Under the pieces are notes generated by a model that searched no databases, was not told the origin of the DNA, and saw nothing but the letters and a program-made list of their open reading frames with translations. A stretch of 52,685 nucleotides of DNA from Chloroflexota bacterium (GTDB lineage Bacteria; Chloroflexota; UBA11872; VXOZ01): positions 1 through 52,685 of the forward strand of contig JAAXIC010000048.1 in NCBI GenBank assembly GCA_012270555.1, in the 5' to 3' direction. Below, piece after piece: positions 1 through 21,232 of this stretch. The position numbers were made by a program, and so were the translations under genes. How positions within the stretch are numbered: position 1 is the stretch's first letter; every line of letters begins with the position of its first letter.

Positions 1-218
1 GAATTAGTCAACATTTACAATTCCGAGTGCCTCTTCGCACGCCTGCAGTCTTCTCAAGCCACCCCTGTGTTCTTTGCGGTCTACCACTTAACGGCGCACG
101 TGGATTCGCGCGCTCCGTTGCTTCCTCCGGATATTCCAAGGGAGGTAGCAGCACGCGGCAACCATGCTCCATAATATGAGAGACCATTTTCAATGCGATG
201 TAGAGAGGAGCGAACCAC

Positions 219-1289
219 ATGAACAACGGCAAGTTGCGGGTAGGCATTATCGGCGCGGGCGGCGCCGCAAGAGGCGCCCATGTCCCAGGCTATCGCAGTA
301 CCGGGAGGGCTGACGTTCTCGCTGTCTGTGACGTGAATGCGGATGCGGCGCGGTCGTTCGCCGAAACTCTGGAACTATCCAGTCATTACGGCAGCGTGGA
401 AGAAATGCTGGCGCAGGAAGACCTGGACGTGGTGAGCATTTGTACCTCGAATGACGCCCATCATCCCGCCGCGATGGCAGCCATCGCGCGCGGTCTCCAT
501 GTCTTTTGCGAGAAGCCGCTGGCGATGAACTTTGCGGAGGCGGTAGAAATGCATGATGCCGCGGAAGCCAAAGGGGTGGTAAACGGCATAAACTTCACCT
601 ACCGCACGACTCCCGCCGCCCGTTACATTAAGGAACTCGCGGATGAAGCAATCTTTGGTGATGTCAAGCAATTCAACATTGAGTACTATCAAAGCTACTC
701 TGTGCAGCCGGGTCGTGGTCTGGAGTGGCGCTTCCAAAAGAAGCTAACCGGTACGGGCGCGCTGGCTGATTTAGGTTCCCATGCTACCGACCTAGCAATG
801 TGGCTGAATGGCGGCATTACCGGCGCGCGGGGCCAGATGGCGACCTTTATCCATGAACGCCCGCTGTTGGACGGGTCCGGCATGGGCACCGTGGACGTGG
901 ACGACGTCACGACGTTTCTCGCTAGGTACGAGAACGGTGCAACGGGAGTCGTCGATGCGACTCGCCTCGCCACCGGCCGCTCAAATCACCAACGCATATC
1001 GATTTACGGGGACAAGGGTTCCTTGGTCTTTCAAAACGGCCCCGAGGGCCGCATTGAGGTAGCCGTGGAGCCATTTAGCAAAGACGGCTCCGCTGTGCCC
1101 GTGCCCGTGCCTTCACGCCTTGCGGCGAGCCCGTCCTCGCACGTACCCGCCTTCGTCAACACGATCCTCGACGGCGCGCCCGTAGACTTCCCCACGTTTG
1201 CAGACGGGCTCCGCGTGCAGGAAGTCCTCGAAGCCGCGGAGGTTTCCCACACTGAAGACCGCTGGGTGTCACTGCCGCTTCCGAGGTGA
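219..1289 (+). CDS. Gfo/Idh/MocA-family NAD(P)-dependent oxidoreductase
   Basis: This is probably a cytosolic dehydrogenase acting on a sugar, inositol or similar polyol. The N-terminal Rossmann fold shows a GIIGAGGAARGAH dinucleotide loop at residues 9-21 and an acidic residue (D38) after strand 2, which in this family usually favours NAD. The family EKP motif is at residues 98-100, and a later G-x-H-x-x-D motif (GSHATD) supplies the usual catalytic-domain His and Asp. The 356-residue length is normal. The ATG is preceded by AGAGGAG with a 9-base gap, which fixes the start. The next gene is convergent, so this one is transcribed alone within the window. The substrate cannot be read from the sequence. 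Confidence 0.9.
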   Translation: MNNGKLRVGIIGAGGAARGAHVPGYRSTGRADVLAVCDVNADAARSFAETLELSSHYGSVEEMLAQEDLDVVSICTSNDAHHPAAMAAIARGLHVFCEKPLAMNFAEAVEMHDAAEAKGVVNGINFTYRTTPAARYIKELADEAIFGDVKQFNIEYYQSYSVQPGRGLEWRFQKKLTGTGALADLGSHATDLAMWLNGGITGARGQMATFIHERPLLDGSGMGTVDVDDVTTFLARYENGATGVVDATRLATGRSNHQRISIYGDKGSLVFQNGPEGRIEVAVEPFSKDGSAVPVPVPSRLAASPSSHVPAFVNTILDGAPVDFPTFADGLRVQEVLEAAEVSHTEDRWVSLPLPR

Positions 1290-18823: not shown

Positions 18824-19804
18824 CTACGCGTTGTCTAAGCCGAGTTCCTGGCGCACTTCGCCGACCGCCTCCACGATGACGGCAAGCTTGGCTTGCGCTT
18901 CATCCACCGTGCGCGTCTTGAGGCCGCAGTCGGGATCGATGTACAGCCGGTCCGCAGGAACGACTTGCAAGCCTTTGTAAATACCGGCCTTAACCTGTTC
19001 CTTGTCCTCGATTACGTGGCTGTGGACGTCTACGACACCCATGGCCAGTTTCTTCGTAAACGGCGCCCGAGAGCTAAAGAGATCGAGAAGGTCAAAGTCG
19101 CTATTGGCCATCTCCAAGTCAATCACATCCACCGGAATCTCCAGCATCTTGGGATAGATGGCCTCAAAGTCGCCATAGCAGATGTGTGTGCCGGTCGTTG
19201 CCTCTATGCCGTCAACTACCACGGCCATTGCGCGTATGGCCAGCGGCAGGTCTTCCGGCCGCGTAGAAACCGCCGGCTCGTCCACTTGAATGTACTGCGC
19301 CCCGGCCTTCTCAAGGTCCACCACCTCTTCGTGGAGCACCTCTGCCATGGCAAGCACGAACTCTTCCTGAGTATCGTAGTAATTGTTGTATGACCACTCC
19401 GCCATCGTGTATGGGCCAGTAATCATGCCCTTGACGGGCCGATCCGTCAGACTCTGGGCAAACTGCCACCAGTCGAGGGTGAAAGACTTCACCCGCTTCA
19501 GCGGCCCCACCGCGATTGGCTTTCGGTAATAGCGATTGCCATACGAGCGCACCAGACCGCTGATCTCCATGCCTGCCATTGTCTCGGCAAAGAAAGTGGC
19601 CATATCGCCCCGGTACATCTCGGAGTCTACGACTATGTCGAGCCCCAGTTCGTTCTGAAAGTCGACCCAAAACTCAGTGTACTTGCGTTCTAACGCCACC
19701 AATTCCTCGTGGGACAGCCTGCCGCGCGCAAAATCCGTGCGCGCTTTGGCAAGCGCCGGCGGCTTCGGCAAACTCCCAACTTGGGTTGTCCATAGACCTT
19801 CCAT
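18824..19804 (-). CDS. MetE C-terminal-like methyltransferase (zinc-binding, core-MetE type)
   Basis: This 326-residue single barrel equals the C-terminal catalytic half of cobalamin-independent methionine synthase. All four zinc ligands are present: H207 and C209 (THICYGD), E231 (DLEMAN) and C293 (DPDCGLKTR). The substrate-binding aspartate stands in IQVDEPA. The N-terminal substrate barrel of full MetE is absent, so it belongs to the short core-MetE group, some of which take methyl groups from corrinoid proteins or unusual donors rather than methyltetrahydrofolate. The ATG at 19804 starts 2 bases after the stop of the upstream zinc-less paralogue, so the two are made together. Confidence 0.87.
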   Translation of the reverse strand: MEGLWTTQVGSLPKPPALAKARTDFARGRLSHEELVALERKYTEFWVDFQNELGLDIVVDSEMYRGDMATFFAETMAGMEISGLVRSYGNRYYRKPIAVGPLKRVKSFTLDWWQFAQSLTDRPVKGMITGPYTMAEWSYNNYYDTQEEFVLAMAEVLHEEVVDLEKAGAQYIQVDEPAVSTRPEDLPLAIRAMAVVVDGIEATTGTHICYGDFEAIYPKMLEIPVDVIDLEMANSDFDLLDLFSSRAPFTKKLAMGVVDVHSHVIEDKEQVKAGIYKGLQVVPADRLYIDPDCGLKTRTVDEAQAKLAVIVEAVGEVRQELGLDNA

Positions 19805-19806
19805 CG

Positions 19807-20787
19807 TTATGCGACAGCCTCCTGAGCTTTCTTGACAGCACGAACCATGTTCTCTAGCTTGTCGTACGCCGTTTCTCTCGGCAGGAACTCCAAGCCGGTA
19901 TTCGGGCTGATGGCTAAGCGGTTCTTGGGAACGTGTTGTGTTACCCATTGCGCAGTTCCCAAGACCGCATCTTCAGATTCCATGCGCACATTGCGCGCGT
20001 CGATGATGCCTAGCATCAGATCTCTATCGTCGGGAAACTCCGGTACAAGCGCGGCATTCTGCTTGCCGTGCACCATGTCCAATCCGAAACCCTGGAACGG
20101 CAACGCGAAGAAGTCGGGCAGCCCGACCGCATCGCCAAAATCGGTGCGCAGCAACGTCGTGGTACCTACACCATCCATGAGCACGTCCATGGCTTCTTGG
20201 AATAGCCCCCAGTCATCCTTGTAGCGGTGCCAGACGATAGCCGGTTCATCGACTTGAATCAGCGGGGCGTCCGTTGCCGCCAAGGCCTTCATCTCCTGAT
20301 TCAAGGCCTGGGCCGTGTCCAAAACGAGGGTCTTGAGGTCAGTGTACACGCCAAGCAATGACAGCTTGGCAATGGTGTAAGGCCCGGTGACCACCGGCTT
20401 CACGGGCTTGGAGGCGTGCTGGCAGGCAAACGCGTAATCGCGCACAAGGATCGGCTCTTGCCATGCAACGCGCGCAGTTGCTTCCGGTTGGCGGTAGAAG
20501 GTGTTCGTGTCGAAGTAACGAATAAGACCGCCGATTTCATAGCCCTTGAGACTGCCGGCGATATATGTCACCGGATCTTGCCAGCGAATCTGACCGTCCG
20601 TGATCACGTCAATGCCGGCACGTTCCTGCTCGCCAATCACCTCGACCGTTACTTCATCTGCCGCTGCGGCAAGCTCGTCTGCCGTAATCCGCCCTCTGTC
20701 AAAGGAGCTTATGGCACGGCGTAATGTCTGCCCGCCGGGCCGATTGGCAATTTTTGGATAGTTCCCTGGGACCGTACTGATCATCAA
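19807..20787 (-). CDS. MetE-like barrel paralogue lacking all zinc ligands
   Basis: This gene is clearly homologous to the next one downstream and has the same length, 326 residues. The shared landmarks are VTGPYTIAKLSL and IQVDEPA. Every zinc ligand is replaced: His to R214, Cys to D216 (RTDFGD), Glu to V239 and Cys to T297 (SPNTGLE). It therefore cannot hold the catalytic zinc but keeps the substrate-binding loop. It is transcribed first, so the order zinc-less then zinc-containing matches the N-to-C order of the two barrels in full MetE. It may be a structural or methyl-donor partner; this is inference. A strong AGGAG site precedes the ATG. Confidence 0.83.
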   Translation of the reverse strand: MMISTVPGNYPKIANRPGGQTLRRAISSFDRGRITADELAAAADEVTVEVIGEQERAGIDVITDGQIRWQDPVTYIAGSLKGYEIGGLIRYFDTNTFYRQPEATARVAWQEPILVRDYAFACQHASKPVKPVVTGPYTIAKLSLLGVYTDLKTLVLDTAQALNQEMKALAATDAPLIQVDEPAIVWHRYKDDWGLFQEAMDVLMDGVGTTTLLRTDFGDAVGLPDFFALPFQGFGLDMVHGKQNAALVPEFPDDRDLMLGIIDARNVRMESEDAVLGTAQWVTQHVPKNRLAISPNTGLEFLPRETAYDKLENMVRAVKKAQEAVA

Positions 20788-21232
20788 CTGCTCCTGTGGT
20801 AAACTCCGTTTTTCTTCAGATTATATGGTATGGTACCCCGTCCCAAATTTCAAAGCCGATGAGCATTGACCTACTCCGGCACTCGCTTCATAGGTGAGCA
20901 AATGACGCCTCAACTCTCTAAGAATCGCGTCATTATCGGCCACCTGGTGACTACTAGAATCAAGTAACCGGGACCGGAATTCTACCGCTTTGGAGAGGCA
21001 AGCAAAGCGCAGATTCGTTGAGTCTACCATCGAGTGACAGCAGTTGCCCTCTAAGTTATGCTATGAACACAACAAGGCTACCGCTCACAGCGTTCTTGCC
21101 GTAGCAACAATAAACACCCTAGCAACCAGCTTAGAGACCAACTCAAGAGTCTGCTTGCAAGCCTCGGCTGCGTAGTGACCGCCGGGCTTTGTTGGCGTGC
21201 CAACGGCGATCTATAGAAAGGACCACCCTCCC
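20788..21232. other. Intergenic region between divergent genes
   Basis: This 445-base gap divides the minus-strand MetE-like operon from the plus-strand enolase-superfamily gene. Apart from the candidate minus-strand promoter near 20820 I see no gene, repeat, tRNA or recognisable riboswitch. Confidence 0.5.
20820..20846 (-). promoter_or_regulatory. Candidate promoter for the MetE-like operon
   Basis: Read on the minus strand, a perfect TATAAT (20825-20820) is preceded by TTGGGA (20846-20841) with a 15-base spacer. That leaves a short leader of about 25-30 bases before an AGGAG site and the ATG at 20787. The -35 box and the spacing are weak. Confidence 0.45.

Follow-up and report, generated by a model that had tools for sequence, protein, structure and literature searches.

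The window, a stretch of 52,685 nucleotides from a Chloroflexota genome, carries two adjacent genes on the minus strand, each encoding a barrel of the cobalamin-independent methionine synthase (MetE) family. The features are, in the direction of transcription:

20788..21196, minus strand: intergenic region 5' of the pair, with an AGGAG motif just before the start and without a known riboswitch.
19807..20787, minus strand: first gene, a zinc-less MetE barrel (P0002), the candidate N (folate-binding) subunit of a split MetE.
18824..19804, minus strand: second gene, a zinc-containing MetE barrel (P0001), the candidate C (catalytic) subunit of a split MetE.

The reading frame of P0002 stops with TAA at 19807 and the ATG of P0001 follows at 19804, 2 bases further on, so that a stop codon and a change of frame separate the two. 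P0001 is 326 aa long, and P0002 is 325 or 326 aa according to the start chosen, either ATG at 20784 (325 codons) or TTG at 20787 (326 codons). The first-pass annotation had given both genes 326 codons, which is right for P0001 and holds for P0002 with the TTG start only. The ATG is the more plausible of the two because the AGGAG motif lies six bases ahead of it and the closest relative (locus L036) starts there. That the neighbours are homologous, as first noticed, is confirmed by BLASTP (29% identity over 315 columns, E = 2e-36; 29–30% overall). A small acylphosphatase-like ORF (18786-18493) lies 37 bases downstream of the pair and a mandelate-racemase-like gene lies upstream in the opposite direction, both named from sequence; no methionine gene adjoins the pair within the window. 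An Rfam search of 20788..21196 gave no riboswitch at the gathering threshold and, with E values up to 10, a single weak match far under its cut-off. No SAM riboswitch was found beside the pair in the Rfam search of the window, nor was any riboswitch found at the gathering threshold upstream in 16 related loci.

The metE product of E. coli MG1655 served as the residue ruler for both barrels, the zinc ligands and homocysteine contacts of MetE being taken from Price et al. 2021 (PMC7857596). P0001 scores 262 bits against PF01717 and its H207, C209, E231 and C293, the zinc set recognized in the first-pass annotation, match H641, C643, E665 and C726 of E. coli MetE. The homocysteine-binding residues are retained as S11, E62 and D175 (E. 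coli S433, E484 and D599), as are the catalytic histidine, H261 (E. coli H694), and the equivalents of R515 and W561. We follow UniProt on the E. coli enzyme for its folate contacts and for the part played by His694. The residue E605 of E. coli MetE, presumably a pterin contact, has no counterpart in P0001, and it is absent also from the haloarchaeal split C subunits. The AlphaFold model of P0001, built from a 14-sequence alignment, has a pLDDT of 86.0, and that of P0002, from a 15-sequence alignment, one of 85.8. The top structural matches of the P0001 model are the C halves of MetE, the best being 1t7l residues 401..733 (Z 37.2).

P0002 lacks a zinc set. At the zinc-ligand columns it has R214, D216, D237 and T297; the first-pass annotation was correct in three of these and had V239 as the fourth, two residues out of register. 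D237 aligns with E231 of P0001, a conservative change, and an Asp at the E665 column is common to the N-domains of fused MetE and the haloarchaeal split N subunits, just as the Arg of P0002 at the H694 column is common to fused N-domains. The segments RYFDTNTFY, GLDMVHGK and GIIDARN of P0002 align with KWFNTNYHY, HVDLVHGK and GLINGRN of E. coli, and the motifs RYFDTN and IIDARN are shared with the fused N-domain. The columns of E. coli K20 and K117 hold basic residues in P0002: K117 is Arg in every split N subunit compared, and K20 is Arg in the bacterial split N subunits and Lys in the haloarchaeal ones. The IQVDEPA loop, said at the outset to be kept in the first gene, is indeed there and is present in both proteins. 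The model of P0002 best matches the N half (1..362) of Streptococcus mutans MetE 2nq5 with Z 36.2, and the N half of Candida albicans MetE (1..382) gives Z 35. C halves reach Z 34, and because these scores are so close (Z 36 versus 34) the fold comparison favours an N half only mildly. The residues of each protein are those of its own half, so the proposed correspondence of the two genes, in order, to the N- and C-terminal halves of MetE is upheld.

The pair is like the fused enzyme of E. coli and Thermotoga maritima in its two barrels, their order, and its zinc and homocysteine residues. It differs from it in consisting of two polypeptides rather than one with a linker and in having no counterpart of E605. 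No single polypeptide of ~750 aa is encoded here, and the TIGR01371 score is 284 bits against a cut-off of 930.

A scan of genome contigs with P0002 as the query gave 16 loci, in Chloroflexota and in ten Omnitrophota MAGs. The genes are adjacent, N first, in all 15 of the loci whose contig extends beyond the N gene, and the zinc partner, which directly follows the N gene, is 58–62% identical outside the genus. All ten Omnitrophota MAGs have the pair with the zinc-less gene first, one of their zinc partners (L046) being broken, and in three of the Omnitrophota loci (L044, L047 and L048) ORFs resembling homoserine dehydrogenase and threonine synthase, named from sequence, lie downstream. When 400 Chloroflexota genomes were searched with a profile, 30 gave a strong N match, spread over nine family groups, and by HMM scoring the C gene follows the N gene in the same orientation in 30/30 of these loci, including that of the window. 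The pair is thus widespread in two bacterial groups, Chloroflexota and Omnitrophota, and the conservation as neighbours proposed as a check on the first reading is found throughout both sets. Haloarchaeal pairs have the same N-first order, and one of them has Mer and a gene of methanopterin synthesis close by.

Homologous tandem genes of nearly equal length could also arise if the zinc gene had recently been duplicated and the zinc-less copy were decaying. The chance of this is negligible. The two proteins are only 29% identical, the N-type motifs are invariant across phyla, and in a tree of all the barrels the zinc subunits and the MetE C-halves form one group with the N barrels outside it; long branches leave the deeper branching among the latter unsure. 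Because the zinc barrels join the MetE C-halves, apart from the N barrels, the tree implies that the N/C split is ancient and older than the bacterial groups. Purifying selection on both genes is strong: within the genus, dN/dS is 0.045–0.065 for N and 0.028–0.080 for C, values meaningful only as a low order of magnitude, as dS is saturated in several pairs. The tree and these ratios rule out a decaying copy. Neither decay nor lost pairing, the two outcomes that the first-pass annotation had set against its own proposal, is seen, and that proposal, a natural separated form of MetE, is supported by the conserved order and adjacency, the purifying selection and the old divergence of N and C.

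The name ‘split MetE’ comes from PMC7857596, where such enzymes are described primarily from archaea (Pyrococcus furiosus PF1268/PF1269, Halobacteria and Thermoprotei) and from the bacterium Sulfobacillus sp. hq2; a full-text search found no other papers using the term, and different wording is possible. The same paper cites a complex from Pyrococcus and expects split MetE to take its methyl group from a methyl-pterin. The present pair resembles the archaeal systems in having separate, adjacent genes for a zinc-less N and a zinc C barrel, with N first as in the haloarchaeal loci read, and no fused MetE. It consists of a C-type zinc barrel and a zinc-less N-type barrel (Meth_synt_1), each of no more than 400 aa, and the genes are conserved together. 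P0002 scores 108.3 bits on PF08267 (cut-off 27) and 109.0 on PF01717, and so just misses the strict rule of Price et al. that PF08267 must outscore PF01717 (PMC7857596). Their AMET1_0515 likewise scores alike on both Pfam models, and the same shortfall is noted for it there. The differences from the archaeal systems lie in the host phyla, here Chloroflexota and Omnitrophota, and in the zinc subunits, which in the tree group with the C-halves of bacterial fused MetE and not with the haloarchaeal split C. Furthermore, the relatives examined here have MetF, and the genus of the window lacks both it and any recognisable Mer.

The core enzymes MesA, MesB, MesC and MesD have a zinc barrel of the same family, and the hosts of MesB, of the class Dehalococcoidia, resemble the genus of the window in the absence of MetF. 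Core Mes enzymes act without an N barrel, whereas here one is always encoded next door (30/30 loci).

The relatives bear on the source of the methyl group. MetF is found in 23 of 24 pair-carrying Chloroflexota outside the genus of the window, in 11 of 12 genomes of a separate check and in all ten Omnitrophota. In six genomes of the Chloroflexota family f33 (G385, G380, G268, G187, G314 and G110) the gene directly upstream of the pair is of the MetF family and ends ~30–45 bases ahead of the N gene. The one such protein tested comes closest to YitJ-type proteins, in their MTHFR half, under the equivalog cut-offs. The gene order MetF–MetE(N)–MetE(C) argues for 5-methyl-THF as the donor. The alternative raised in the first-pass annotation, a new partner pair for an unknown donor, finds no support in the family as a whole because most relatives have MetF, six of them in the same gene string; what stands of it concerns the genus of the window.

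No MetF/MTHFR (PF02219) was found in the six genomes of this genus, five of which are at least 95% complete. An F420-type Mer was sought as a substitute and rejected: there is none above the curated score, G004 giving only sub-threshold LLM-type matches and the other five genomes no match. Also discarded was a corrinoid methyltransferase on contig C12, where the protein that would bind B12 resembles a regulator of the CarH type. Two of the GCV_T proteins were likewise discarded as demethylases of the LigM or DmdA type: the standalone one adjoins GcvH and reads as GcvT, and the FAD-fused one on C17 is under every demethylase cut-off. A further GCV_T protein, of 926 aa, is encoded on C9. Tetrahydrofolate one-carbon metabolism does exist in the genus, since FolD is present in 6/6 genomes and the T and H proteins of glycine cleavage occur as well. 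A genome of the same class with a full-length MetE (G011) is also without PF02219, and an unrecognised route to the methyl group is therefore possible in the class.

The absence of MetF in 6/6 genomes leaves room for a second reading, that the pair, at least in this genus, methylates homocysteine from a donor other than 5-methyl-THF, such as a corrinoid protein or another carrier; the core MetE of Dehalococcoides, which also lacks MetF, takes methylcobalamin (PMC7005905). We think this unlikely. The corrinoid-using core enzymes have no N barrel, whereas it is conserved here, with basic residues identical to those of the relatives that have MetF, in some of which MetF is directly upstream, and the genus has FolD and proteins of the GcvT/GcvH type.

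Other genes in the genus bear on how much methionine the pair need supply. No full-length MetE or MetH was found, but PF02574 homocysteine S-methyltransferase genes are present, and split MetE is perhaps not the sole source of methionine. On C17 (G000:C17:60660-64498; L091 6660-10498) one of these genes is followed by that of an FAD-GCV_T protein resembling dimethylglycine dehydrogenase, and the two are possibly a betaine route to methionine. Such a supply, with MetF absent, could also suit a methyl-salvage or demethylation enzyme which, for example, frees THF from imported 5-methyl-THF and is not the main methionine synthase of the genus. This is very improbable, as the Omnitrophota context is one of amino-acid biosynthesis, and the chemistry of the reaction would be the same anyway.

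Three further loci of the genus, all outside the window, encode MetE-like proteins. One (G000:C41:70979-72987; L089 6980-8988) is another split MetE-like pair, diverged and again with N first, which is found in 6/6 genomes and is flanked by the genes of a hydrolase and an ABC solute-binding protein. Its function may differ from that of MetE, because its zinc subunit has lost the equivalents of R515 and of the catalytic H694 (M94 and Q270). A single MetE-like protein (G000:C24:24883-25884; L092, L005) has an in-frame TGA exactly where the HxC motif would have its zinc-binding Cys (VHL-TGA-RGN); this position is TGA in three genomes of the genus and TGT (Cys) in a fourth (see also L129, L130 and L128), and a tRNA-Sec scores above the Rfam cut-off in 5/6. 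From its sequence it looks like a selenocysteine protein of the MetE family, of which a literature search found no published report. A third locus (G000:C23:62609-63472; L004), on the contig of the window, encodes a single MetE-like protein of 356 aa whose zinc motif is complete and which has no N partner alongside.

We consider it probable, at roughly 80%, that the pair in the window encodes a split methionine synthase of the cobalamin-independent type, a heterodimer of the two gene products with 5-methyl-THF as its donor. Both subunits would probably be made from one transcript and assemble as the two halves do in fused MetE. The zinc barrel would hold homocysteine as the zinc thiolate and perform the methyl transfer, and the zinc-less barrel, as the N subunit, would help to hold the polyglutamyl tail of the methyl-pterin. 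A more tentative suggestion, which we think has perhaps one chance in a few, is that the split MetE of this sponge-type Chloroflexota genus has been cut loose from MetF and draws its methyl group from an undescribed source, whether an unrecognised methylene-THF reductase, scavenged 5-methyl-THF or another donor.

These loci turn split MetE, so far an archaeal curiosity, into an enzyme that is regular in bacteria of two phyla. Within the genus of the window a methionine synthase persists without MetF, which is a small puzzle.
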